A stretch of 24,374 nt of DNA, from positions 1 through 24,374 of IMG/VR virus record IMGVR_UViG_3300035698_003879; one strand, given 5' to 3'. Of the stretch, positions 4,345-22,374 are shown one piece after another. Every line of letters begins with the position of its first letter. Within the stretch, counting starts at the first letter, position 1. This stretch comes from a virus. A program made the position numbers and the translations under genes. The notes under the pieces were generated by a model, which was given only the letters and a program-made list of their open reading frames with translations, searched no databases and had not been told where the DNA came from.

Positions 4345-4560
4345 ATGTGTATATCTGCGCCTAAGACACCACCTATAGCGGCTTTGCCTGCTGATCCAGC
4401 ACCAGTGCCTCAAGAATCTGATCCATCTACGTTAAATGCTCGCGAGTCTGCGCGTAAGCGTAAGCAGTCAGCCCTTGAATCTAATCAAACATTAGTTACT
4501 GGCGGCCAAGGACTTATTGATCAACCCGTTACTGGTCTTAAATCTGCTACTGGCGCGTAG
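4345..4560 (+). CDS. Small proline-rich phage protein of unknown function (71 aa)
   Basis: A 71-residue protein starting MCISAPKTPPIAALPADPAP, with GGAGC 9 bases ahead of the ATG. The N-terminal third is proline-rich; the middle is basic (ARESARKRKQSALES); the end carries TLVTGGQGLIDQPVTGLKSATG. Small proteins of this build (Met-Cys start, Pro-rich, 'TGG.GL' near the end) commonly sit next to portal or terminase genes in podophages, without known function; this is from memory. The Cys at position 2 is not preceded by a signal peptide, so it is not a lipoprotein. It follows a 47-base gap containing the ACCAAGG motif and precedes the portal by 7 bases. Confidence 0.7.
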   Translation: MCISAPKTPPIAALPADPAPVPQESDPSTLNARESARKRKQSALESNQTLVTGGQGLIDQPVTGLKSATGA

Positions 4561-4567
4561 GCTTTCA

Positions 4568-6271
4568 ATGAAAATGGAGCTTGACGAAAACAATTATTAC
4601 AAGAGCCTTCGCAGCTCTCAAAAGAACGTGCTTAACGGCATGGTTCCTATCTATAAAGATATTCGCAATTTCCTTTCACCGCGCACGGCACGCTTTGATG
4701 GCGAGCTAATCAATAGTGGTGCGAGGCAAGATAGCAATATCCTAGACATTTCTCCGCGTTTAGCCGTGAGAACACTTGCGTCTGGACTGCAATCAGGAGT
4801 GACGTCGCCGCTTCGTCCGTGGTTTCGGCTCGGCACTCCTGATCCAGACTTACAGGACTTTGGCCCTGTTAAGGTGTGGCTCCATATTGTAGAAGTTCGG
4901 ATGAGGCAAGTTCTTGCCCGCTCGAATCTATATGATCGGCTCAAGAGTAGCTACGGCGTACTCGGCACATACGGCACTTCTGCAATCGGTATTGATGAGG
5001 ATGATGAGGACGTGGTTCGTGGGGTTGATTTCCCGCTTGGATCATTCACCATTGCTACTTCACATGCGGGCAGGGTGCATACACTATCCCGTGAGGTATG
5101 GTTTACTCCTGTTCAAATGATTGAGAAGTTTGCTGATGGTGACATGAAGGTTGCACGCGATAAGCTTTCTCAGTCTGTTATCAGCGCATATGATAAAGGC
5201 AATTACGATCAAACATATCCAGTGTGCCAAGTAATTGAGCCTAATCGTAACTATAAAATTGGCTCTGAGCTTTCTAAATTCAAGAAATTCTCAAGCACAT
5301 GGTTTGATGAATCACGCAGCGGAGGTGAGGCTATACTCATGCGCAGCGGATACGACAACCTACCGTTCATGGCCCCTCGCTGGGATCTGCTTGGCGATGA
5401 AACATACGGCTATGGTTGTGGTGAAATAGCTATCGGCACTGCGAAGTCATTGCAGCTAATGGAAAAGCGTAAGCTTCAAGGTATCGACAAGAATGTTACA
5501 CCGCCCATGGTGGCTGATGCCTCTATGCGTAACCAGCGCACCAGCGTTTTACCGGGCAGCACTACATATGTCTCTGGCTTAATCACTGGTAAGCCGGGCT
5601 ATGCCCCTGCGTATCAGGTTAATCCATATATCAATGAGCTGCGTGAAGAGATTATGCGTAGTGAGCGATTGATTGACGAGGCTTTCTTTAAGACATTGTT
5701 CCTTCAAGTCAGTGACATTGGTGGCCAGCCTAACATTACCGCTACACAAATTAATATGATGCGTGAAGAAAAGCTATTGATGCTTGGCCCTGTGCTTGAG
5801 CGCCTAAATGATGAGCTGCTTGATCCATTACTTGATCGAATTTTTACTGTAATGCTCAAGCGAGGCATGTTTCCTGACCCTCCGGAAGAGTTGCAAGGCA
5901 TGCCACTTCGTATTGAATACATCTCAGTTCTGGCCCAAGCTCAAAAAGCCATGGGTATTGGTAACATTGAGCGCTTTGTAGGCTTTGTGGGTAATCTAGC
6001 TGTCGCTAAACAGGATCCCTCTGTTTGGGATAATGTCGATGCTGATGATGTTATTAATCAATATGCTGATGGTGTAGCGCTATCACCAACAATGATGGCC
6101 TCGCAAGAAACAATTGACTCTATTCGTCAAGGGCGGCAGCAGCAGCAGCAAGCTGCGCAGGCGGTTGAAATGGGTACGGCTATGGCACAAGGCGCAGAAA
6201 CATTATCCAAGGCCGATACGTCGGGTGAAAATGTTCTAGCTCAAATGATGGGCGGTGGCTCTAGTGCTTGA
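4568..6271 (+). CDS. Portal (head-to-tail connector) protein, T7 gp8-like
   Basis: The 567-residue portal forms the ring at one capsid vertex through which DNA enters and leaves and to which the tail attaches. The family signature is clear: RLAVRTLASGLQSGVTSPLRPWFRL at about 64-88, then YGVLGTYGTSAIGIDED and PLGSFTIATSHAGRVHTLSR, and later VNPYINELREEIMRSERLIDEAFF and TATQINMMREEK. Length fits T7-type connectors. The ATG at 4568 (GTAGG upstream) is chosen; a frame open from 4517 overlaps the previous gene and adds an unlikely hydrophobic tail. The C-terminus is Gln/Ala-rich (QQQQQAAQ), coded by a CAG run. It overlaps the next gene by 17 bases or fewer. Confidence 0.95.
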   Translation: MKMELDENNYYKSLRSSQKNVLNGMVPIYKDIRNFLSPRTARFDGELINSGARQDSNILDISPRLAVRTLASGLQSGVTSPLRPWFRLGTPDPDLQDFGPVKVWLHIVEVRMRQVLARSNLYDRLKSSYGVLGTYGTSAIGIDEDDEDVVRGVDFPLGSFTIATSHAGRVHTLSREVWFTPVQMIEKFADGDMKVARDKLSQSVISAYDKGNYDQTYPVCQVIEPNRNYKIGSELSKFKKFSSTWFDESRSGGEAILMRSGYDNLPFMAPRWDLLGDETYGYGCGEIAIGTAKSLQLMEKRKLQGIDKNVTPPMVADASMRNQRTSVLPGSTTYVSGLITGKPGYAPAYQVNPYINELREEIMRSERLIDEAFFKTLFLQVSDIGGQPNITATQINMMREEKLLMLGPVLERLNDELLDPLLDRIFTVMLKRGMFPDPPEELQGMPLRIEYISVLAQAQKAMGIGNIERFVGFVGNLAVAKQDPSVWDNVDADDVINQYADGVALSPTMMASQETIDSIRQGRQQQQQAAQAVEMGTAMAQGAETLSKADTSGENVLAQMMGGGSSA

Positions 6272-8994: not shown

Positions 8995-9011
8995 GCACAC
9001 GCGGAGTGACA

Positions 9012-9404
9012 ATGAAGAAATTTAAAGCCTTATCAAGCGGCACACTTGGAAATCCATATCGTTTAATTGAGAAGGATCAAATTGTTTCTTTGAATGACGA
9101 TGAGGCAAAGGTGTATGCAAACTGCAAGTGGCTTGTTCCACTAGCTGATGCGCAGAAAATCAAACAAAAACCCATTATGTCGCATATGGCAGATGAGTCT
9201 AATCTTCACCCTCACCCGATTTTGCTTAGCTCTGGCCAGCTTGGTGATGATGCTTATAATCGACAAATGGAAAGCATTAAAAAGCGTGAGAATACAGAGG
9301 ACGGTATCGAAATCCCTGTTGACACACAACCTGATGAAGGTAGCGAAGAAGAAACAATTGACGGTGACGTGGCTGATGGTACGGGCGAGCAAGACGTTAT
9401 CTAG
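9012..9404 (+). CDS. Acidic phage structural protein of unknown function (130 aa)
   Basis: The start chosen is ATG 9012 (MKKFKALSSGTLGNPYRLIE), with GCGGAG 5 bases upstream; an earlier ATG-less extension would run through the hairpin at 8971-8994. The N-terminal 45 residues look like a small beta domain (SGTLGNPYRLIEKDQIVSL, then AKVYANCKWLVPL) of the kind found in short phage head proteins. The C-terminal 45 residues are strongly acidic (PDEGSEEETIDGDVADGTG). It sits between the cement protein and the tail tubular protein, where head-completion or decoration proteins occur, but no function is recognised. Confidence 0.7.
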   Translation: MKKFKALSSGTLGNPYRLIEKDQIVSLNDDEAKVYANCKWLVPLADAQKIKQKPIMSHMADESNLHPHPILLSSGQLGDDAYNRQMESIKKRENTEDGIEIPVDTQPDEGSEEETIDGDVADGTGEQDVI

Positions 9405-10052: not shown

Positions 10053-12755
10053 ATGGGCCGCCCTTCATTCTATAATCAACCGAGCTTTGCTGCTGGCGAG
10101 ATAGGCCCTCACCTTTATGGCCGCGTTGATCAAGAGCTTTATTATATTGGGCTTCGCACGGCGCGTAATTATGTGATACGTCATTATGGCGGCGCAAGCA
10201 ATCGTGCTGGTGGTTACTTTGTGGGCGAAACAAAAGACTCTTCTAAGGTTTCCCGGCTTCACCGCTTTCAGTTTAATGAAATACAAACATATGTGTTAGA
10301 AATTGGTGATGGCTATATGCGTTTTTGCGCGGATGGTGGTCAGGTTATTGAGTCGGCTGTCAATGTTAGCGCAATAACAAAGGCTGATCCCGGTGTTATT
10401 ACAGCAAATTCTCATGGTTTCAGCAATGGGGATGATGTTTTTATTCAGGGCATAGTTGGAATGACTCAGCTCAACGGGCGCAGCGTGCGTGTTGCAAATG
10501 TCACAACAAACACTTTTGAGATAACTGACTATCAAGGCGCTGATATAGATACTACTGCATATTCTACATATGGTAGTGGTGGATCTGTTTCTCGTATATA
10601 TACTATTACTACACCATGGGCGGCAGATGAGGTATTTGGCCTGCGCTTTGCTGCCAAAAACGATACACTTACAGTATTCCATCCTGATTATTTTCCGCGC
10701 GATATTACGCGAACGGGCAATACAGCTTGGACTGTTGCACTGTTCACTCCTAATGGCGGGCCGTTTCAAGATAAAAACAGTTCTGATGTCACGGTCACTG
10801 TTGATGCGGATACTGGCACGGGCGTTACACTGACTGCATCTGCGGATATATTTTATTCTAGCATGGTGGGTGAGCTATTTTATATTGAGCAGGATCCTTA
10901 TGATGACACTAAGGCTTGGGAGGCCGCTAAATCAATTACTGCTGCCAATATTCGTAGGGCCGGGCCTAACTACTATAAGGCAGCAAATACCGCCACTACC
11001 GGATCATTAAAGCCGGATCACTTGGAGGGTTCGCTTACTGATGGCGACAACGGCGTTGAGTGGGAATATCTACACTCTGGTTTTGGCATTGTTGAAATCA
11101 CAGCATATACTAGTGCGACTGAGGTGACTGTTACTGTTATTAATAGGCTTCCGGGCAATCTGGTAAGCGTCGCTAGCGGCATATGGGCCAAGGCTGCTTG
11201 GTCAGAATCACAAGGATATCCCGTATCTGGCGTATATCATAAGCAGCGTTTTATCGTTGGGGGAACTCCGTTTGCTCCTAACCGCCTATGGTCAAGTGCT
11301 GTTCGTCTGCGGGCGGCCTTTGGTAATAGCAATCCTATTCTTGCTGATGAAGCTTTTACCGTTGATCTTGATACTGTTGAGGTTAATGCTATTCGCCATC
11401 TGGTGGCGCTCAAGCAGTTGATAGCGCTAACCTCTGGATCGCACCAGCTTATTAATGGTGTGGATAATGTTCTGGATGCTACAAGCCCTCCTGTTGCTGA
11501 TGTTCAAGAGAATACGACTTGCAGCATAGTTGAGCCTATCATTATAGGAAATACGGCAATTTATGTTGAGGACACTGGTGATCTGATACGCTCTATGAAG
11601 TATGAGCTTGCTGGTGATGGCTTCGGAGGTATTGATCTAACTGCGCGCAGCCCGCACCTGTTTGAAAACAAAACGATTGTGGATTGGACGTACCAGCGCC
11701 GCCCGCTTCAAGTCGTTTGGGTTGTGCAAGATGATGGCTCGCTTATTGGATTCACTCTTGTTGAAGAGCAAAAGTTTTATGCTTGGCACAGGCATGATAC
11801 TGATGGCACATTTGAAAGCGTTACCTCAATTCGTGAGGGCCGTGAAAATGATGTTTATCAGATATGCAACCGCACTATTGATGGTGTAACGAAGCGATAT
11901 ATTGAGCGCCATGCAAGCCGCCGCAAGCGTGAAAAGGTGCGTGATTACTTCTTTGTTGATTGCGGGCTTTCGTATGATGGGCGCAACACAAGCACGAAAA
12001 CCATAACTGTTAGCGGTGGTGTAACTTGGGCCTATGGCGAGTCGATGACATTAACAGCGTCAGCGTCAACATTTACTGCTGAGGACGTAGGAAATAAGAT
12101 TGTTTTCTGGTACATAAATGACGAGGGTACTAGTATAGCGCTTCGATTTGAAATAACGGCCTATACATCTGGAACCGTGGTAACTGCCGTGGCTACAAAA
12201 AGCGTGCCTACTGCCTATCAAAATGCTGCCCGTACTGACTGGGAGTTTGCCAAAAAAGTATTTTACAACTTTGATCATCTTGAGGGTAAGGATGCCTCTG
12301 TATTTGCTGATGGTAATGTGGTTAATGGCCTGACGTTTACCGATGGCACACTCACAATTCCGGATGCTGCTGCGGTTGTTCACGCTGGGCTTGGCTATAT
12401 ATCGGATCTTGAAACATTAGATCTTGCTGTTCCGGGTGGCGGGTCGAAAGCAAAGGTTACTAATCAACCGAAGCTATTTATTACTGCGCAGGAAACCCGT
12501 GGTATATGGGCCGCAACGGATGCTTTTGAGGATGAGAGCATTAATTTTAACTCTTTGGACTCTAAGTTCATGAAGCTAAAACCCCGCAGTCCTGACATTG
12601 GATATGATTTACCTATTCCTGCGGGTAGCGATTTATATGAAATTACGCTAAACTCACATTGGTCTAGGAAACAACGTGTGTGCTTGCGCCACATTGATCC
12701 TACACCGATAACAATTAATTGCATCACTCCGGAGGTTGTTCTTGGCGAAGGTTAG
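10053..12755 (+). CDS. Large tail/nozzle protein (tail tubular protein B-like, 900 aa)
   Basis: The N-terminus is the clear mark: QPSFAAGEIGPHLYGRVDQELYYIGLRTARNYVIRHYGGASNRAGGYFVGE. This 'F.aGEi.p.lygR.Dl..y..gl...rN....p.GG..nRpG..fV' pattern is shared by large tail proteins of many podophages. Residues about 105-180 (ITKADPGVITANSHGFSNGDDVF, LNGRSVRVANVTTNTFEI) match the beta domain often labelled ubiquitin-E1 FCCH in such proteins, a structural module and not an enzyme. The rest is beta-rich with several GSGG turns. ATG at 10053 follows the previous stop by one base, with GAGGG upstream. It probably forms the lower tail or nozzle. Confidence 0.82.
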   Translation: MGRPSFYNQPSFAAGEIGPHLYGRVDQELYYIGLRTARNYVIRHYGGASNRAGGYFVGETKDSSKVSRLHRFQFNEIQTYVLEIGDGYMRFCADGGQVIESAVNVSAITKADPGVITANSHGFSNGDDVFIQGIVGMTQLNGRSVRVANVTTNTFEITDYQGADIDTTAYSTYGSGGSVSRIYTITTPWAADEVFGLRFAAKNDTLTVFHPDYFPRDITRTGNTAWTVALFTPNGGPFQDKNSSDVTVTVDADTGTGVTLTASADIFYSSMVGELFYIEQDPYDDTKAWEAAKSITAANIRRAGPNYYKAANTATTGSLKPDHLEGSLTDGDNGVEWEYLHSGFGIVEITAYTSATEVTVTVINRLPGNLVSVASGIWAKAAWSESQGYPVSGVYHKQRFIVGGTPFAPNRLWSSAVRLRAAFGNSNPILADEAFTVDLDTVEVNAIRHLVALKQLIALTSGSHQLINGVDNVLDATSPPVADVQENTTCSIVEPIIIGNTAIYVEDTGDLIRSMKYELAGDGFGGIDLTARSPHLFENKTIVDWTYQRRPLQVVWVVQDDGSLIGFTLVEEQKFYAWHRHDTDGTFESVTSIREGRENDVYQICNRTIDGVTKRYIERHASRRKREKVRDYFFVDCGLSYDGRNTSTKTITVSGGVTWAYGESMTLTASASTFTAEDVGNKIVFWYINDEGTSIALRFEITAYTSGTVVTAVATKSVPTAYQNAARTDWEFAKKVFYNFDHLEGKDASVFADGNVVNGLTFTDGTLTIPDAAAVVHAGLGYISDLETLDLAVPGGGSKAKVTNQPKLFITAQETRGIWAATDAFEDESINFNSLDSKFMKLKPRSPDIGYDLPIPAGSDLYEITLNSHWSRKQRVCLRHIDPTPITINCITPEVVLGEG

Positions 12756-13215
12756 TATAATAAAGGCAACGGCTGCTCATGCAGAATACATTGCAAAGAA
12801 TGTTCGTGATGCTGATAAGCAAGAGATATGGGCTATTGCCATGCGTAATCCAGAAGAGGCTATGCTTAATGGCATTGAAATATCAGATAAGTCATTTACT
12901 GGGATGGTTGATGGTGTGCCTGTATGCATGTGGGGTATTGTTGAGCAATCAATCATTGGGCCAGTTGGCACGCCATGGATGATAGCTAGTAATAAGCTTG
13001 ATCAGTACGCAAAACTATTTATCCGGCAGTGCAAAAAACGCGCTCACAAGTATTTTTCTGCTTACGGTCTGCTTGAAAATTACATTGACACTAGAAACAC
13101 AAAGGCAATACAATGGCTCAAATGGCTTGGGTTCTCAGTAGAGGACGTATCTAGCCCATACGGTGCGCTGGGTATGCCTTTTCACCGCTTTACTATGGGG
13201 GCAAAAAATGTGTGA
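12742..13215 (+). CDS. T7 gp13-like (DUF2833) internal virion / GNAT-like protein
   Basis: The start is TTG 12742, six bases after GGAGG (12731-12735); TTG 12736 touches that site and is less likely. The 157 residues have the acetyltransferase-like layout of the T7 gp13 family: IKATAAHAEYIAKNVRDADKQEIWAI at the front, GMVDGVPVCMWGI in the middle, then NTKAIQWLKWLGFSVEDV, which resembles a GNAT C-terminal strand and helix. Whether it acetylates anything is unknown; the T7 protein is needed for virion assembly. It overlaps the tail gene by 14 bases and the next gene by 8, and heads the internal-protein set. Confidence 0.8.
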   Translation: MAKVSIIKATAAHAEYIAKNVRDADKQEIWAIAMRNPEEAMLNGIEISDKSFTGMVDGVPVCMWGIVEQSIIGPVGTPWMIASNKLDQYAKLFIRQCKKRAHKYFSAYGLLENYIDTRNTKAIQWLKWLGFSVEDVSSPYGALGMPFHRFTMGAKNV

Positions 13216-13699
13216 ACCAACGCTTGCAATAGCAGCTATCGCAATGTCTGCGGCTGGCGCGTTTAGTCAGGCTCAAACAGAAAAAGGAAATGCGAAACAA
13301 AGCGCTGCCATTGCTAGAACCAATCAAGAAATTAAAGAAAAGCAGGCAACTGATGCGGTGCGTCGTGGCGCTGAGGGGGCTGGTGACAAGCGGCAAGAGG
13401 CTCGTGAGGCAACCGCTTCATTGAACGCGCGCGCAGGCTCCAGCGGATTCCTAGCTGGCACTGGTACTAATCTTGATCTTGAAGAGCAAAATGCTGGTAT
13501 TGGTGAGCAAAACGCTTTGACTGTATTAAATAATGCTGAGCGCGAGGCTTATGGATACAAGGTGGGGGCTGCTAGTGATGGCCAAGTTGCCGCTGCTTAT
13601 AGCAGTCGTGCAAGAAGTGCCGGAAGAAATGGCTTACTTGCAGTTGGAACAACGCTAGTAAGTGGAGCATCTAGTAACTACGACACGTTATTTAATTAA
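13208..13699 (+). CDS. T7 gp14-like internal virion protein (163 aa)
   Basis: Start ATG 13208, giving MCEPTLAIAAIAMSAAGAFSQ; a longer frame from 13163 overlaps the previous gene deeply and lacks a ribosome site. The Met-Cys start, a short Ala-rich hydrophobic segment (6-19) and then a long Ala/Gln/Lys/Glu helix (QTEKGNAKQSAAIARTNQEIKEKQATDAVRRG) are the hallmark of gp14-type core proteins, which insert in the outer membrane during DNA ejection in T7. The C-terminus (RNGLLAVGTTLVSGASSNYD) has the usual small-residue segment. The ribosome site is weak (GGGG), so coupling to the upstream gene is likely. Confidence 0.78.
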   Translation: MCEPTLAIAAIAMSAAGAFSQAQTEKGNAKQSAAIARTNQEIKEKQATDAVRRGAEGAGDKRQEAREATASLNARAGSSGFLAGTGTNLDLEEQNAGIGEQNALTVLNNAEREAYGYKVGAASDGQVAAAYSSRARSAGRNGLLAVGTTLVSGASSNYDTLFN

Positions 13700-13708
13700 G
13701 AGTAAAGT

Positions 13709-15826
13709 ATGCCAACTGTACCAGTATTAAAAAAGAATGTTGAAACAAGGCCGCTAAACGGAGGCTCTGTATCTCAATTGCCACAACAGGTTGGCTTTGG
13801 TGCTGAGCTTAGTCAGGCGGGCAAGGCGCTTGGGCAGTTTGCCGATCAAGGCCGGAAGCGCGGCAATGAAGTTGCTATGATTGAGGCGCAGCGTGCCTAT
13901 GATGAGCTTGAGGCAAAAACATTGTTTGATCCTGATAAGGGTGCTTTTTCGCAAAAGGGTGAAAATGCTCTTGGATTGCCTGAGCGAACCTTAAAAGAAT
14001 TTGACGATTTCACAACAAACTATCGCAAGAACCTTGCTAATGATGAGCAACGCTTCATGCTTGATAAAATGACGGTATCCCGTCGCGGGGGCATAGAGCC
14101 TCGGCTGCAAACGCATGAGCGTACCGAAATGGATGCAATCGCAAAAGGAAGAGCCGATGCGGCTATTGACTCTGGAACGCAGCGAGCAACTCTATATTGG
14201 AATGATCCCAAAACCTCTGAGGACTCAATAAATAATGTTGGTGACGTTGTTGCCTTATCTGGGCAGCGCAATGGTCACTCAGCTGAGCAGATAGCATCTA
14301 ATAAATTCAAGGCCATGTCTACTGCGCGGTTCAATGTTTTGGCTGTAATGTCAGATAAAAATGAAGCGGGCGCGGTAAAATATTTTCGTGACAACCGAAC
14401 TAAGTTTACTGCGGACGACTTTGTGCGTGGCCAAAAAATTATAGGCGCGGTTGAGGAGGATATTAACGCAAGGGATATTGTGAATAATGTATCTGCGCCT
14501 GATGTTGTAAAAGATGCAAGTAGCGTGATTGATTTTGTCGTAACAAACTACGAGGGCGAGAAGCTTGTTACCGATAATAACGGTGCAATAGCGCGCTACG
14601 GTATTAATGCAGCGGCCAATCCGGATCTAAAAGATAAGCTTGAATCTATGACTAAGGACGAGGCAATCGGCTACCTCAAGGATCGTTATTACGACAAGCT
14701 TGATATTGACAATATGTCGCCTGAAATGCGACTGCCTACGTTCAACTTTGCTATGACATCTGGCGTTGAGCAGACTAAGAAATTGCTGAAAAGAGCTGAT
14801 GGCGATACACAAAAGTTCATTGATTTACAAGCAGAGTTTTATGCGGATCTTGCTGAAAAAGACCCTGTGAAATATGGCACAAACTATAATGGCTGGATTA
14901 ACCGCTTGCAGGGTGTAACTGCTCAGGTCAGTGGCTCTGGCGGGCAAATGATGAGCATATCAGAAGCTAACGCACGCATTGATGCTTCGGATGGTGATTC
15001 TACCACTAGGCAGAAAGCAAAGAACCTATATAAGCAGCGCTATGATGGTGTTATTGCTGCCCGCAAGCGCGGCGAAGATGATGCTAGCCGTGCGGTTGCT
15101 GAGTATGATGCGGCTGGTGAAACCCCTCCTATGAGTGTTCTGGCCCGGATGAGTCCTAAGCAGCAAGCGGAGCGTCAAGCTAAAAACTATGATCCAATTG
15201 AATATGAGCGCGTGCTTCGTCAGGTTAGCTTTGGTGCGCCAGTTGATTTGGAGCAATACCGCTGGCGGTTCAAGCCCGCACAAGTTGAGCGTTTGATTGA
15301 GTTGCAGGCTGATCCTGTGGGCCAAGCAAAAAGCCGCGCTGTTGAAGAGCAAATGTCTAGTGCGGTTATGTTGGCAACAGGCAAGCAGGTTTTGAAGGGC
15401 AAAGAAGATTATGAAAAGTTTAATAACTTCCGCGAGCTTTTATATAATGGCATTGATGCTTTTGAGCGCACCACTGGGAAAAAAGCAACAGCAGACGACA
15501 TTGAGAATATTGCTGATAAGCAAAAGCTGAATAATGGCTTTGGTTGGTTTGGCTCTGGCGATTCGCTTGTAATTGACGGAATACCAGAACCGGATGGCCA
15601 ATACTACAGCCGACACCCTAGTACTGGTGAAGAGGGTGCCATTGAAGAGGTTGCCCTTGATTATAGTCGCCTTATTTCAGCGCTTACAATAATTGCCCGC
15701 GCTGAGGGCTTGCCTGTTACAGAAGAAAATCTTGTAAAATTGTATGAGCGTGAAAAATCTGCTGGTCGTATCGAAGATAAATATAATAATCCAAATAATC
15801 CTATAAGCTGGAAGTCTGGTATTTAA
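13709..15826 (+). CDS. Internal virion protein (T7 gp15-position, 705 aa)
   Basis: A 705-residue, mostly helical, highly charged protein lying between the gp14-like and giant proteins, where T7-like phages place the gp15 core protein. The N-terminus VPVLKKNVETRPLNGGSVSQLPQQ is a pattern I recall from such proteins, followed by a coiled helical stretch (about 30-75: LSQAGKALGQFADQGRKRGNEVAMIEAQRAYDELE). I see no lysozyme or transglycosylase motif (no SLT-type Glu-Ser pair), so a wall-cutting role is not supported. Residues 550-600 are helical; the last 100 include a Gly/Asp-rich turn (NNGFGWFGSGDSL). The ATG has only weak AAGAG upstream. The stop overlaps the next ATG as TAATG. Confidence 0.7.
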   Translation: MPTVPVLKKNVETRPLNGGSVSQLPQQVGFGAELSQAGKALGQFADQGRKRGNEVAMIEAQRAYDELEAKTLFDPDKGAFSQKGENALGLPERTLKEFDDFTTNYRKNLANDEQRFMLDKMTVSRRGGIEPRLQTHERTEMDAIAKGRADAAIDSGTQRATLYWNDPKTSEDSINNVGDVVALSGQRNGHSAEQIASNKFKAMSTARFNVLAVMSDKNEAGAVKYFRDNRTKFTADDFVRGQKIIGAVEEDINARDIVNNVSAPDVVKDASSVIDFVVTNYEGEKLVTDNNGAIARYGINAAANPDLKDKLESMTKDEAIGYLKDRYYDKLDIDNMSPEMRLPTFNFAMTSGVEQTKKLLKRADGDTQKFIDLQAEFYADLAEKDPVKYGTNYNGWINRLQGVTAQVSGSGGQMMSISEANARIDASDGDSTTRQKAKNLYKQRYDGVIAARKRGEDDASRAVAEYDAAGETPPMSVLARMSPKQQAERQAKNYDPIEYERVLRQVSFGAPVDLEQYRWRFKPAQVERLIELQADPVGQAKSRAVEEQMSSAVMLATGKQVLKGKEDYEKFNNFRELLYNGIDAFERTTGKKATADDIENIADKQKLNNGFGWFGSGDSLVIDGIPEPDGQYYSRHPSTGEEGAIEEVALDYSRLISALTIIARAEGLPVTEENLVKLYEREKSAGRIEDKYNNPNNPISWKSGI

Positions 15827-18800
15827 TGGATTTTTATGAAGCATTAAAACAGTCTACTCTTGAACGTGATGATGAAGAGGCGGGGGGAGCAATAGCTCGT
15901 GCTGCCAATGTTGATCCGGATCAATACGCTGCTGATTTAGCGCTGTCAAAGCGCTCAAACATACCTGTTGATACAGTGAGTCGTAATCGTGATGTTGTTA
16001 AAAAGAAAGTTAATGAGCTAACCTCATATGATATTGCAAGTATTCTAGGCGAAACGCCGGAGGCAAAAGCCTTCTGGAAAAAGCATGGCCCTTTAGTTGG
16101 TGATGATTTTGGCGTCGTTGCGACATGGAAAAAGAATATTACTGATATTCCAAAAAGCTTTGAGGACAGTCTTGATACTCAGCGCGTTATAGAGCTAAAC
16201 GATTTTGATATGAATAATGAGCTTACGCCTGAGCTTGAGGCTGAGCTTAATGCTATGAATGAAATGGCAAGGAACCGTCCTCAACGCGGAACAGGTGGCT
16301 TTATCAGTGATGGTTTAAACCTTACTGCTCAAAACTCTGTGCAGCTTGGGCGCACTACGGCCTATAGTCTTGGTGGATCTGCTGTTGGCGCTGGTACGGG
16401 CTTTGTGGCTGGTAATGCAACGGGTGTTGGACTATTCCTTCCAGAAGAGATATTTACCGTGCCGGGTGGTGCTATTTTAGGTGGTCGCGTAGGCGCTGCA
16501 TATGAAAACTACCAGCAACAATCGCGGTTAATAAATAATGAGCTACGACAAATTCGCGGGGATGATGGCCAGCCCCTTGATCGTGATGTTCGTATAGGCG
16601 GCTCTATCGCTGCTGGTATGCTTAATGCAGGACTGGATACGGTTGGTTTTAGCAAGGTTATGCAGAATATTCCCGGCTTTGATAAGGTTGTTGGTAATCT
16701 TACTCTGGGCGGAATGAAAAAAGCTATGCGCACGCCGGGCATGAAACAAGCATTTGCTCGTATAGGAAAACGATTTTCTACTGGTGTAACGGTTGAGGGC
16801 GCAACTGAGGCGGCTCAGCAAGTGACTCAAATTATCACTGAGGAGCTGAGCAAAGAGCTATCGGATGGAAAGTTTGCAAGCCCCTCTTTTGGTGAGCGAA
16901 TTAATGAAACGGGTGAGGCGTTCTATGGTGGCACTGCCATGGGTACTATTATTAGTGGTGCGGGCGCAACAGTTCGCTCTGTTAATGCGGTTCGGCGTGG
17001 TAATTATGTTTCGCCTGAGCAGGCGCAAGAATATGCGCAGAATCTTAATAAGTCGGTGCGTGAAGATAAGCTCTTTCAGCGTAGCCCGGAAGCCTTTCAT
17101 GACTTAATAAGCAGCTTAGCTGGCGATGAAAAGTTTTACATTAGCTCTGATGCAATAGCTGACACGGTTGGCGTATTTACAGAAGAGCAGCGTAATGCGC
17201 TATTCAATGCTGCGCCCGATCTGCAAAATGATATTAATACCGCTATAGTTTCTGGCTCTGACATTGCAATAAAAAAGGCTGATTACAGCACATTCATTGC
17301 TCCTTATGAGCAGGCTGATGCGTTGGCTCCTTACATTAAGCTTGATCCTGCCGATCAAAGCGTTGCTGAGCGACAAGCAGAAAAGCAATATCTCATGGAT
17401 AATCCGCAGGCGCTTGAAGCGTTGCGCCAGTCGGAAGCTGATCAAAGCCAGATTGATCCAGAAATATTTAAAGCGCTGGAAAAACAAGTAAGCCGGGCCA
17501 TGAAACAGGCTGGCCGTAGCAGTGCTGAACGCCAGACTGTAGCGCCACTATTCGCACGCAAGATTGCTCGTGATGCGGCTGCGTTTGGACTTGATCCTTT
17601 ACAGGAATCAAATGAAAGCCTGCTTGCGTTTGAAACGCAGAATGAAGCTGGGCAAACAATATCCCAAGGCTCAAACATTGATGCGCTATTTGAAGATATT
17701 GCGCGGCTTGATGAAAAGAATGATCAGGGCGAGAATGTACTGAGCGAGCCAGTGCGCGAAGCTGTGCGTGCTTTTACTCAACGGCTGGAAGCTGCTGGCA
17801 TTACGCCTGAGCAAGCAAGTGAGCTTGGTGGCCGCGCTGTATTTGATCAGCTTTATCCTGCGCCTACTGAGCTTGATATTGGTGATGCTACGGTTACGCT
17901 TCCGCAGGCCAGCATCTCTACGGATGAGAATGGCCAGCTCTCGCTTGATGTGGAAGCTGATGATGGTAGCCGTGCGGTTATTGAGGGATACCTTGGGCAA
18001 GAAGAGGTGTTATCGCAAAGTGATCAAACACAAACGCCAGCATTTAAAGAATCGTTTGGTGATTCTAAGGTTGTTGATGAAGATGGTGAGCGCGGCTTTA
18101 TTAAGTTCACTCGCACTAAAAACTTCAAAGAGGCGCTACGCCGCGTAACGGTTGTATTTACTCGCAATGCCAATATGTCAACTGCTGCTCATGAGTTTGC
18201 TCACTTTGGCGTAGCGATGCACCGTAAGTACGCAGAAATGGCCCGCGAGCGCATAGCGGCTGGCGAGAGTAATCCTGAAATAGAGCGTATCCTAGCTGAC
18301 TGGGAAACACTAAAAACTGAGGCGGGCGCTAATAGTGATCGCTTCACTGTTGAGCAAGAAGAAAAAATTGCTCGCATGTTTGAAGGCTATCTGCGCGAAG
18401 GCAAGGCCCCAAGCGAAAAGCTCAAAGCTGTGTTCACCCGTTTCCGTGAATGGCTTACAGCAATTTACCGTGATGCTAAGGCATCTGGCGTTGAAACTAA
18501 TCCGATTGTATCAGAAATATTTGATCGCTGGCTTGCATCAGAAATGGAAATTGCAACGGTTGAGCAAAAGAATTTAAGCATACTAGATGTTGGCAAGGGC
18601 CTGAATCTTAGTGACTCTGCCATGGTGAATCTAAACCAATATGTTGCGCAGTCAAAAGCTGTGGCTGAGGAAAAGCTCTTCCGTGAAATGCAGCGTCAAA
18701 AGCGCCGTATGGAGTCGCAAGCATACAAGAGTGAGTATGCAAAAGAAGTTGAGAAGGTAACTGACGAGCTTAGCAAGCAGCGTGAATACATGGTGGTTAA

Positions 18801-21800
18801 CTACCTTGGTGAAAATGATCTGCGTATTTATATTGATCCTAATGCACCATCTGATGAAGTTGGCCTGCCTCCTGAGCTTGGGCAAATACCTGATTATGCT
18901 GAGCCTATTAGCGCTGCTGATCTTGATGCATTTAATAATGAGCGTATGGATGCAGAAACGATGCGCCAGTATGCCATTGATATATTATTGCAGCCAAAAG
19001 GTGCGCGGCCAAAAAGTCTGGTGTCTTTCTTGGTTGGCCGTGGCGGCCTTAAAGAATCTGGTGATGAATTAAACACGATTGGCATTAATAACAAGCAGCG
19101 CCGGGGGATTCTAAAAGAAGATGGCCTTGAGCTTGATATGGCGCGGGAAGCCGCTGCGGAAGCTGGGTATATTTCCTCGGATGCGGATTTAAACGAGTTC
19201 ATTGATGCGCTGCGCGATGATTGGACTTCGGGGGGTGTATATGCTAATTCTGATATTGATGCAGTTATTGAGGTTGAGGCGCGTAAAAAAGCGGAAGAAA
19301 TAGCGGCTGATCTTAATATTGATATTGCTCTTGAGCGCCGCAAGCGTCAAAACTATGGCGCGTATGCTTCATTATTTACGGACGACATTAACAATCCAAA
19401 GGCGGTGCATGCCGAAGTGCCAGCGGAGCTGTTTGGTTATGAGACTGAACAAAAAATGCTCACTGCGATAAAAAACACTGGCAACATAAAGCGTGTTGCG
19501 GCGCGTCTTGCCCGCGTAAACCTAAGCGAAAAATATCCTAATATGCTTGATGGTAATCGTATTCATGTTGAAGCGATTGATGCTGTTATGAATGATCGCT
19601 CTCTGTTGGCTCTTGATCTCCTAATAAAAGAAATGGGCAAAGGAAAAACTAATCGCTCTGGGATGCGTGCGTTTGCAAAAATGGCTGCTCAGCGTCAAAT
19701 GAACCGTATTAAGGTTGGTGATGCAAACTACGCTTTCCGTTATGATATAAGCCGCGATAAAGCTATTCGTGATGCTATGCGCTCTGCTCGTAAGGGTGAT
19801 GTGGATGCTGCGGTGTTTCAACTGCAAAATGCAATGGTCAGTCAAATGATCTACAAAGAATTACAGGACTTTAAAAAGCTTCGCGTGAAGGCTGAAAAGC
19901 TCTTTGCAAAAGTAAACGCTAGCGACAAGGTTTTATCTGCCCGTGCGGATCTTGATTTCCTTGGTGCAGCTCGTTATATCATGGCGAAATATGGTCTTGG
20001 CGGTGAGCGCTTTGATGTCAATCAATGGCTGGCTGATATTAAAGAAGGTGATCCAATAGTCTATGAAGATTTGGCCTCTGCAATTAATGTTATTCAGGCC
20101 CCCGAGAAGCCCGCAAGCGAGCTTACGATAAGCGAATATCGTCAGATTTATAACGCCATCCAGAATATTTACAATACTGCGCGAAGCCTAAAGCAGTTTG
20201 ATAAAGACGATAAAAAGTTTCAGGTTGATGAAGCTGTTGGCGAGCTTATTGAAACGATGGGCAAGCACAAGCAGCAACCGTTACTTGATAGCACTCAGGT
20301 TATTAACTGGAATAAAGCAATAGAATCATTGCTCTCTATAAAATCTTCTCTGCGGCGTGTTGAGCTGTGGGTCAAGGCTATTGATCGTGGCGATGATGGT
20401 GCGTTTTTAAAGTATATCTGGCAGCCAGTTTCTAATGCTGAGGATGCTTACTTGCAGGATCATCAAAGGTGGATGAGTGGCTACCGTGATATTTTGAAGA
20501 AGCATAAGGCTATGCTTAATAAGCGCAACAAGGTTGATTCTGGCATGGTTCGCTCTGATGATATAGGGCGGCAAGCTCCTATTATCTGGAATGACAAAAT
20601 GGAAATGATAGGATTTCTCCTGCACACTGGAAATGAAAGTAATCTGGAAAAGCTTTTGGGTGGTTATGGAATTGATCGGCAAAAATATAATGAAGCAATT
20701 AAGTCGCTTGAGGCAAACGGCCTAATAACAAAGCAGGACTGGGAGCTTGTGCAAGAGCTTTGGGATTATGTTTCTGACATAAAGCCGTTGGCACAAAAGG
20801 CTCATAAAAAGCTATATGGCCACCGCTTTGATGAGATAGAAAATACACCAATTCAAACCGCTTACGGAACGATTCGTGGCGGATACTGGCCAGCTATTGT
20901 TGATGCGAGCCAAGTTACCGACGCCAAAAAGCTTGATGAAATACTTGATGACTCTCGCCAGTATATGTGGGCAACTGTTTTTAAGGGTATGTTCAAAAGC
21001 CGTGTGCAACAATACCAAGCTCCGCTAGAAACTGACTTGCGCCTTGGTAGCCAGCACATTGATCGCATGCTTAAATTCATTCACTTGGAGCCTGCTGTTC
21101 GTGATGTTGGGCGTGTGATAAATCATAGAGATTTCAAAAATCACTTGGGCGCAATTGATCCTGATGCTTATGCTGGTATGCTGCTTCCTTGGTTGCAGCG
21201 TGTTGCTAAGCAGGCAACTGAGCCGCCTCCCGCTCCGGGCGATAAAGGCTCTATGCTGGGCCGTGGGTTTGTTAAGAAACTAAAGCAAGCATCTTCTCGT
21301 CAATTTATTTTATACAATGCAACTGTTGCCGCCCAGAATCTTGCAAATATGCCTGTGGCTGCTCACTTTGTTGGCTATCCTAGACTTGCCGCCGCATTTG
21401 CTAAGCATGCGCTTTCGCCTATATCAACAACTCAAGATGTAAATAAAGCGTCTAAAATGATGGCTGAGCGTAATAATATAGCATCACAAAAAGTCTTTCA
21501 GGAAATTAGTCAGATAGCAGGGCGCAAGTATAAGTTCACAAAAGTTAAGGATTTCCTTGTTTTGCATGGCACTATACTGCTACGCGCAAGTGATGTTTGG
21601 CTTGGTACTGTTACTTGGATTGCTGCTTATGATAAGGCGATTGGTGAGCATGGTGATCACGATAAAGCAGTTGCATATGGTGATCATGTGGTTCGCAGCT
21701 CTCATTCTTCTCGTGGGGCAAAAGATGTGTCAAAACTTGAAGCTTCGCATCCAGCGGTTCAAATACTTGTGCCATTTTATAACTATTTTAATACCCAGCT

Positions 21801-22374
21801 TAATGTTCAAGTAACGGAAATGGGCAATATCATGCGTAATCATGGCTGGTCGGGTGCGCCTCAGCTATTCTTTGCATATATATCTTTGATGTTGTTGCCC
21901 GCCCTAATCGGTGATCTTATTAGTGATGGCCTCCGTGGCAAGCTTCCGGATGACGATGATGGCGATGGTGAGTATATTGATGATTGGTTGGCTTGGGCGC
22001 TGCATAAGCAAGTACGCTATCTGGCTGCTGAGGTTCCTGTCGTGGGGCAAACAGTTAATGCTGCAATTAAGGCGTTTAATGACAACCCTATGGATGATCG
22101 CGCAAGCATATCACCGTTTGTATCCCTTATTGACTCTAGTGTGCGCGCTGTTCAGGGTGTTGCAAAAGAGGCTCAGGGTACTGATGTTGACGATAGTCGT
22201 CTGGCGCAGGATCTGCTTATGATGGGCGGTCTGGTTACTGGGCTTCCTCTTGGGCAATTTGGAAAGCCTGTTGGTTATATTGCTAATGTTAATGAGGGTG
22301 ATGAACCTAAGCCTGATAATGTGTTTGACTTCACTCGCGGTATTATTGGTGGCCCTCGCGTGCCTAAGCGGTAA
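15826..22374 (+). CDS. Giant internal virion protein with zinc-protease motif and PLxRFG-like end (2182 aa)
   Basis: The largest gene (6.5 kb), in the position of the T7 gp16 ejection protein. N-terminal 1-110 has the common phage module (DPDQYAADLALSKRSNIPVDTV, then ASILGETPEAKAFW). Residues about 180-225 are a Gly/Ala-rich hydrophobic stretch. A metallopeptidase motif AAHEFAHF gives H789-E790-x-x-H793, and EEKIARMFEGYLREGKAPSEKL (from about 845) supplies a likely third ligand (E845 or E846); this is the layout of predicted proteases in large phage polyvalent proteins. A coiled stretch follows near 940-990, a module SLVSFLVGRGGLKESGDEL near 1065-1145, a hydrophobic segment near 2014-2033 (LFFAYISLMLLPALIGDLI), and GLPLGQFG ending the protein near 2141-2146, a variant of the PLxRFG motif. 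It starts at TAATG overlap. Protease activity is not shown. Confidence 0.8.
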   Translation: MDFYEALKQSTLERDDEEAGGAIARAANVDPDQYAADLALSKRSNIPVDTVSRNRDVVKKKVNELTSYDIASILGETPEAKAFWKKHGPLVGDDFGVVATWKKNITDIPKSFEDSLDTQRVIELNDFDMNNELTPELEAELNAMNEMARNRPQRGTGGFISDGLNLTAQNSVQLGRTTAYSLGGSAVGAGTGFVAGNATGVGLFLPEEIFTVPGGAILGGRVGAAYENYQQQSRLINNELRQIRGDDGQPLDRDVRIGGSIAAGMLNAGLDTVGFSKVMQNIPGFDKVVGNLTLGGMKKAMRTPGMKQAFARIGKRFSTGVTVEGATEAAQQVTQIITEELSKELSDGKFASPSFGERINETGEAFYGGTAMGTIISGAGATVRSVNAVRRGNYVSPEQAQEYAQNLNKSVREDKLFQRSPEAFHDLISSLAGDEKFYISSDAIADTVGVFTEEQRNALFNAAPDLQNDINTAIVSGSDIAIKKADYSTFIAPYEQADALAPYIKLDPADQSVAERQAEKQYLMDNPQALEALRQSEADQSQIDPEIFKALEKQVSRAMKQAGRSSAERQTVAPLFARKIARDAAAFGLDPLQESNESLLAFETQNEAGQTISQGSNIDALFEDIARLDEKNDQGENVLSEPVREAVRAFTQRLEAAGITPEQASELGGRAVFDQLYPAPTELDIGDATVTLPQASISTDENGQLSLDVEADDGSRAVIEGYLGQEEVLSQSDQTQTPAFKESFGDSKVVDEDGERGFIKFTRTKNFKEALRRVTVVFTRNANMSTAAHEFAHFGVAMHRKYAEMARERIAAGESNPEIERILADWETLKTEAGANSDRFTVEQEEKIARMFEGYLREGKAPSEKLKAVFTRFREWLTAIYRDAKASGVETNPIVSEIFDRWLASEMEIATVEQKNLSILDVGKGLNLSDSAMVNLNQYVAQSKAVAEEKLFREMQRQKRRMESQAYKSEYAKEVEKVTDELSKQREYMVVNYLGENDLRIYIDPNAPSDEVGLPPELGQIPDYAEPISAADLDAFNNERMDAETMRQYAIDILLQPKGARPKSLVSFLVGRGGLKESGDELNTIGINNKQRRGILKEDGLELDMAREAAAEAGYISSDADLNEFIDALRDDWTSGGVYANSDIDAVIEVEARKKAEEIAADLNIDIALERRKRQNYGAYASLFTDDINNPKAVHAEVPAELFGYETEQKMLTAIKNTGNIKRVAARLARVNLSEKYPNMLDGNRIHVEAIDAVMNDRSLLALDLLIKEMGKGKTNRSGMRAFAKMAAQRQMNRIKVGDANYAFRYDISRDKAIRDAMRSARKGDVDAAVFQLQNAMVSQMIYKELQDFKKLRVKAEKLFAKVNASDKVLSARADLDFLGAARYIMAKYGLGGERFDVNQWLADIKEGDPIVYEDLASAINVIQAPEKPASELTISEYRQIYNAIQNIYNTARSLKQFDKDDKKFQVDEAVGELIETMGKHKQQPLLDSTQVINWNKAIESLLSIKSSLRRVELWVKAIDRGDDGAFLKYIWQPVSNAEDAYLQDHQRWMSGYRDILKKHKAMLNKRNKVDSGMVRSDDIGRQAPIIWNDKMEMIGFLLHTGNESNLEKLLGGYGIDRQKYNEAIKSLEANGLITKQDWELVQELWDYVSDIKPLAQKAHKKLYGHRFDEIENTPIQTAYGTIRGGYWPAIVDASQVTDAKKLDEILDDSRQYMWATVFKGMFKSRVQQYQAPLETDLRLGSQHIDRMLKFIHLEPAVRDVGRVINHRDFKNHLGAIDPDAYAGMLLPWLQRVAKQATEPPPAPGDKGSMLGRGFVKKLKQASSRQFILYNATVAAQNLANMPVAAHFVGYPRLAAAFAKHALSPISTTQDVNKASKMMAERNNIASQKVFQEISQIAGRKYKFTKVKDFLVLHGTILLRASDVWLGTVTWIAAYDKAIGEHGDHDKAVAYGDHVVRSSHSSRGAKDVSKLEASHPAVQILVPFYNYFNTQLNVQVTEMGNIMRNHGWSGAPQLFFAYISLMLLPALIGDLISDGLRGKLPDDDDGDGEYIDDWLAWALHKQVRYLAAEVPVVGQTVNAAIKAFNDNPMDDRASISPFVSLIDSSVRAVQGVAKEAQGTDVDDSRLAQDLLMMGGLVTGLPLGQFGKPVGYIANVNEGDEPKPDNVFDFTRGIIGGPRVPKR

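Follow-up and report, generated by a model that had tools for sequence, protein, structure and literature searches.

Gene order at the locus

The window (the whole stretch of DNA analysed here, a virus record of 24,374 bases) carries structural genes whose order, as read from PHROG matches, we take to be that of phage T7: a portal-type adaptor, gp11-like and gp12-like tail proteins, two internal virion proteins, an endolysin-type protein, a giant protein and a tail protein. The following genes are referred to below.

4517-6271: portal-type adaptor (PHROG match)
12736-13215, plus strand: internal virion protein, phrog_308 (E 1.6e-42)
13163-13699, plus strand: gp14-like internal virion protein, phrog_418 (E 3.1e-26)
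13709-15826, plus strand: endolysin-type protein at the gp15 position, phrog_1044 and phrog_10475, with a GH108 domain (E 1.2e-6, above the cut-off)
15826-22374, plus strand: giant protein of 2182 residues at the T7 gp16 position, PHROG 9880 (E 7.7e-234)

The gene for the giant protein follows the gp14-like and gp15-position genes, which is the place of gene 16 in T7, and the protein is the gp16-position product of a BPP-1-like podovirus. T7 gp16 itself carries a transglycosylase, whereas the muralytic domain of the window sits in the neighbouring gene (13709-15826). The same succession of internal virion proteins, endolysin-type protein, giant protein and tail protein surrounds Bbp10, the homologous PHROG 9880 protein of Bordetella phage BPP-1, which is about 24% identical to the window protein over 52% of the latter. 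Because of the gp16 position beside the internal virion protein and endolysin genes, we infer that the giant protein is plausibly injected with the DNA, as the earlier note had supposed. The function of PHROG 9880 is recorded as unknown, homologues of Bbp10 are annotated merely as part of a structural cassette, and the searched text of PMC3974807, PMC8951688 and PMC9239159 held no virion proteomics of relatives. As a separate observation, residues 116-180 of the gp12-like tail protein (10053-12755) match E1_FCCH, a domain of ubiquitin-activating enzymes, with E 1.1e-11.

A conserved ligand set in the giant protein

Bases 18172-18405 encode, in frame, residues 783-860 of the giant protein, where the earlier note had reported HEFAH at residues 789-793 followed by a segment E-x-IAR-x-FE-x-YLREGKAPS. 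Translation bears out both elements: residue 846 is glutamate, and the segment reads E846-K-I-A-R-M-F-E853-G-Y-L-R-E-G-K-A-P-S863, running three residues beyond 18405.

18094-18540, plus strand: predicted metallopeptidase domain, residues 757-905 (conservation and model)
18190-18204, plus strand: HEFAH, residues 789-793, two presumed zinc ligands and presumed general base (conserved in 100 of 100)
18361-18363, plus strand: E846, presumed third zinc ligand (conserved in 100 of 100; replaced together with HExxH in the Rhizobium-type members L111, L160 and L184)
18382-18414, plus strand: family signature E853-S863 (E-G-Y-L-R-E-G-K-A-P-S), retained even in Rhizobium-type members without the ligand set

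HEFAH is the only HExxH in the 2182-residue translation. Since 126 of 5000 composition shuffles of the protein contain at least one HExxH, the motif by itself is weak evidence, and we accept it as real on the strength of its conservation. In protein searches, the giant protein was present in 42 phage records and the domain in 40, Bbp10 among them. To these were added 80 viral loci, the best 80 of at least 587 domain matches in viral contigs, found by the pattern ExY[LVM]xEG[KR][AS]P, which includes neither HExxH nor E846. The resulting alignment of 100 sequences (the window, 19 others and the 80 viral loci, these being the best of at least 587) is identical throughout at H789, E790, H793, E846, A849, E853, Y855 and G859, which rules out a chance motif. 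The first four are those whose lack of conservation the earlier note had named as evidence against a peptidase. Since that pattern selected the 80 viral loci, it accounts for part of the conservation between E853 and P862. HExxH itself is present in 99 of the 100; the remaining sequence, L100, has HExxxH (HEIGGH), its histidines aligning across a gap. Beside the third ligand, position 845 varies: 80 of the 100 have H, 11 have Q, 7 have E (the window included) and 1 has M, and it differs between the window (E) and Bbp10 (H). This variation rules out H845 as the third ligand, and sequence comparison supports E846 as the best candidate.

A second sample was drawn from bacterial genomes with the ExYLxEGKAP signature alone as the key, giving at least 120 stretches (80 plus 40, not random), among which we judged 103 to be family members and 17 to be chance matches, for example to aminotransferase-like proteins. 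HExxH lies upstream of the signature in 95 of the 103 and HExxxH in one (L222), while five (L111, L128, L160, L180, L184) have neither; the other two, L142 and L195, are truncated at the start of the locus. We excluded L128 (QESGR, with a fused N-terminal half and a short C-terminus) and L180 (HExxH region absent) as probably decayed. L257 is intact; L258 and L259 resemble chance matches. The domain occurs in prophages of many phyla. When the C-terminal 1,454 residues of 72 sequences were compared, 21 columns were identical in at least 70 sequences and 16 of these fell in residues 785-901, which makes the peptidase domain less variable than any other part of the C-terminal half.

Several members vary around the motif. 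L100 (domain at 9001-9372) and L222 (HEAGGH), with their HExxxH spacing, both retain E846. Phage AF (L007, residue 807) and phage CP2 (L017, residue 926) have a second HExxH, HEVQH and HEVLH respectively, upstream of the conserved one. Inserts of at least 100 residues separate the HExxH helix from the third-ligand helix in L143, L150, L173, L018 and L254, those of L143 and L018 being ADP-ribosyltransferase-like in appearance when inspected by eye.

Predicted fold and relation to known zincins

A model of residues 734-948 built from 62 sequences (mean pLDDT 85.3) places HExxH in helix 784-811, preceded by two strands, and both E846 and E853 in helix 842-858. In this predicted model, an HExxH helix with a downstream glutamate on a later helix reproduces features of clan MA. 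It is also the zincin pattern described for the MPTases of polyvalent proteins in PMC5512222. There, zincin-like MPTases are both the commonest domain and the hub in polyvalent proteins of phages and plasmids, fall into 12 clades and include an HExxxH-type set; processing of P1 DdrB is reported, and autoproteolysis or host targeting is suggested for MPTases. The window shares with these proteins, P1 DdrB included, an HExxH helix and a later-helix glutamate within a giant phage protein.

Fold searches with the domain model (Foldseek, VIA-align 2) gave no metallopeptidase among the matches listed; such a result does not exclude the fold. A profile scan matched the window domain to no Pfam peptidase family, and single members gave weak, scattered Pfam matches to M78, M3, M41 and reprolysin. 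The best matches to a solved relative by sequence, both rejected, were penicillin acylase (E 0.011, over the second helix only and without HExxH) and Spartan (E 1.9). The gluzincin-like ligand set proposed in the earlier note stands, conserved in every aligned sequence; a gluzincin fold would be putative, no solved metallopeptidase having matched the model among the structures listed.

The nearest published assignment concerns Bbp10: its residues 700-1000 helped to seed CLCA_X, a predicted zincin family whose consensus is HExxHxxxD (PMC3650047). Bbp10 shares the downstream signature with the window and has HESGH where the window has HEFAH. The aspartate of the consensus is missing from both, position 797 being A in the window and E in Bbp10, for which reason we leave the window domain out of CLCA_X even though its Bbp10 homologue served as a seed. 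Overall, we regard the domain as well supported, and very probable, as metallopeptidase-like, with the putative zincin assignment drawing on the ligand pattern and published profile work rather than on a fold match.

Variable cargo and a near-constant C-terminal module

The peptidase lies between two unequal parts of the protein. In 61 complete viral homologues, the C-terminal side, counted from HExxH, has 1233 +/- 80 residues, against 1241 +/- 399 on the N-terminal side.

15886-16077, plus strand: LPD22-like stretch, residues 21-84 (E 2.8e-5; 24.7 bits, below the Pfam cut-off of 28.6)
17761-18075, plus strand: predicted joint between cargo and peptidase, residues ~646-750, a candidate self-cleavage site matching the region of the gene split in Hyphomicrobiales
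18556-22371, plus strand: C-terminal module, residues 911-2182, mostly helical (model and lengths)
20356-21477, plus strand: part of the C-terminal model aligning with gp16-type core proteins, residues 1511-1884 (suggestive only)

Domains of polyvalent proteins recur on the variable side: of six relatives examined, five have LPD22 above the cut-off near the N-terminus, and upstream of the peptidase two have ART-PolyVal and one has PBECR5. The window protein differs in that the profile scan matched no effector domain in it and gave LPD22 only weakly. The C-terminal model (residues 983-2182, mean pLDDT 72.9) aligns over ~220 residues with core or ejectosome proteins of T7, PhiM1 and E1004 at Z 9.3, 8.7 and 7.0, a range that helical models reach by chance, and Foldseek with this model gave no match at E <= 0.001. 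Together with the gene position shared with T7 gp16, the partial structural similarity of the models suggests that the C-terminal module is probably of gp16 type.

A comparable layout is found in the N4 vRNAP, in which an HExxH domain (C1) precedes a large helical C2 (PMC12633501). In six of six N4-like proteins, ~1,230-1,309 residues separate HExxH from the C-terminus, equal to the lengths in the window family. Homology of the C-terminal half with N4 vRNAP C1-C2 is nevertheless unsupported (hhalign E 0.016, probability 2.9%; Foldseek match to 9pnr at E 3.5), the window-family profile matched none of six N4-like genomes, and the RNA polymerase domain of N4 vRNAP is absent from the window protein by profile scan.

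In one genome (G180, L254:4925-10000), a T7-gp16-type C-terminus (phrog_342, E 4.9e-97) follows the peptidase domain in the same protein, in place of the usual module; the peptidase domain thus moves between kinds of ejection protein. We had considered this locus as a split gene with an intact site, which is ruled out by its lysozyme-type upstream gene and gp16-type C-terminus.

Gene splitting and ligand loss in Hyphomicrobiales

The three Rhizobium-type members L111, L160 and L184 retain the EGKAP signature, with QGSSR, HGASR and QGASR in the place of HExxH and A, S and S in the place of E846. Of 397 genomes searched in the same order, Hyphomicrobiales, 9 gave a match, and within one family 6 of 20 genomes had further members. 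At the HExxH position, the five measured members of that family have REAAH, RDGAR, CEAAR, REAAR and GELGD; in the sixth genome, G375, which carries two copies, the first has RDGAR and the second likewise lacks HExxH. Hence none of the eight measured Hyphomicrobiales members (three plus five) has an intact ligand set. In the five members of the second subclade, inspection by eye finds E846 kept in four and replaced by D in one, so that only HExxH is lost throughout.

In all eight, the open frame for the C-terminal half starts 51-143 residues before the HExxH equivalent, distances that are upper bounds because they are taken from open frames. In eight of nine genomes examined, an upstream gene has a match to the N-terminal part of PHROG 9880 (nine copies: L234, L235, L236, L248, L250, L251, L252 and both copies of L253); L249 has no such N-half match upstream. 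The two halves overlap by four bases in G001, and in L235 the N-half frame lies ~3 kb upstream rather than adjoining. L253, from G375, has two copies of the split pair in succession on one contig.

A tree of the C-terminal module (101 sequences) groups the eight split members in one clade with support 1.0; as judged from these sequences, the split clade is monophyletic, a single evolutionary event. Ten columns reach at least 95% conservation among the 93 other sequences; the split members retain them in 67 of 80 cells, and the C-terminal half is accordingly still under constraint where the ligand set is not. We read this pattern as the need for cleavage having lapsed when the two parts came to be made separately. 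The elements may also be domesticated or decaying: they lie on bacterial contigs, adjoining tail and internal virion genes in G297, and in G001 the endolysin gene is ~20 kb away from the split pair. L151, with an intact HELGH and its N-half in another frame, may be an exception, a split with an intact motif. Other broken frames with intact motifs exist, mostly in metagenome assemblies, and G202 (L245), where the motif is intact but stops follow, was left out of the count. We found no report of the association between splitting and ligand loss in the open-licence literature searched.

Proposed role in self-processing

We observed conservation of the ligand set, the two-part architecture, the gene order and, in one clade, a gene split coinciding with ligand loss. 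The best explanation, to which we assign a probability of about 0.48, is self-processing at the joint between cargo and ejection module. The giant ejection protein would comprise a variable cargo, a zincin-like metallopeptidase at the joint and a near-constant helical module. The histidines of HEFAH and E846 would presumably hold zinc, with E790 presumably activating water, and the most likely job of the domain would be cleavage in cis just upstream of itself. Such a cut would separate the N-terminal cargo from the C-terminal ejection module; it could fall before packaging, within the virion, or once the protein has entered the cell. We infer the cut and when it occurs, as we do zinc binding and catalysis. 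Self-cleavage is favoured over an attack on host proteins because the C-terminal side is constant, the cargo is variable, and the split and the loss of the ligand set come together. Self-processing has likewise been proposed for such MPTases from P1 DdrB, although, according to the same source, no processing precedes packaging of the N4 vRNAP, whose HExxH domain is analogous (PMC5512222). We also count against it that the split is a single event, that decay or domestication is possible, the cases of L151 and L249, and that there is no fold match and no known cleavage product. Tentatively, the peptidase might even be a dedicated release switch, existing only because cargo and ejection module form one chain, its site decaying after a split into two genes.

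The alternatives fare less well. It is unlikely, in our estimate, that the domain, once injected, cleaves proteins of the host, whether of its defence, its envelope or its regulation. It does sit in a probably injected protein, effector domains adjoin it in relatives, and PMC5512222 allows such a role; however, a host-directed protease should persist whether or not the protein is one chain, yet the split clade loses the ligand set, and it would be expected to vary between hosts, whereas nothing else in the C-terminal half is as invariant as this domain, which prophages of many phyla share. The comparative evidence points to the protein itself rather than to the host defence and envelope proteins that the earlier note had offered as targets; its other proposal, that the protease could process the virion core, comes close to self-processing. 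Action in trans on other virion core proteins, at assembly or ejection, would suit the fixed place of the gene in the structural cluster, between internal virion proteins and tail protein, but we think it improbable, as it gives no prediction why splitting should accompany site loss, and core-protein cleavage was not found in the literature searched. We give similarly little credence to a metal site with a structural role or other chemistry and no protease: no solved metallopeptidase matched the model, just two strands are predicted before the HExxH helix, and HExxH also occurs in radical SAM type enzymes (PMC12633501), but HExxH with a later-helix glutamate is the zincin pattern of polyvalent MPTases (PMC5512222), the Bbp10 region was linked to zincins by profile comparison (PMC3650047), and selective loss upon a gene split is not expected of a purely structural site.

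If the peptidase is such a switch, self-cleavage would be the general means by which this large podovirus group releases ADP-ribosyltransferases, RNases and other injected effectors from the ejectosome. The motif itself belongs to an already predicted kind of zincin, and what is new here is the functional evidence. The targets of MPTases are left open in PMC5512222, and a natural gene split beside the peptidase, with the ligand set lost, makes that question directly testable.

Two observations concern how the relatives are recorded. Our scans give no support for the names 'crystallin beta/gamma motif', 'lysis protein' or 'lysin', under which L002, L008, L011, L012, L014 and L019 are annotated. 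Limnohabitans phage DC33 (L006, PQ492659.1) is filed under Inoviridae yet encodes the podovirus giant protein.
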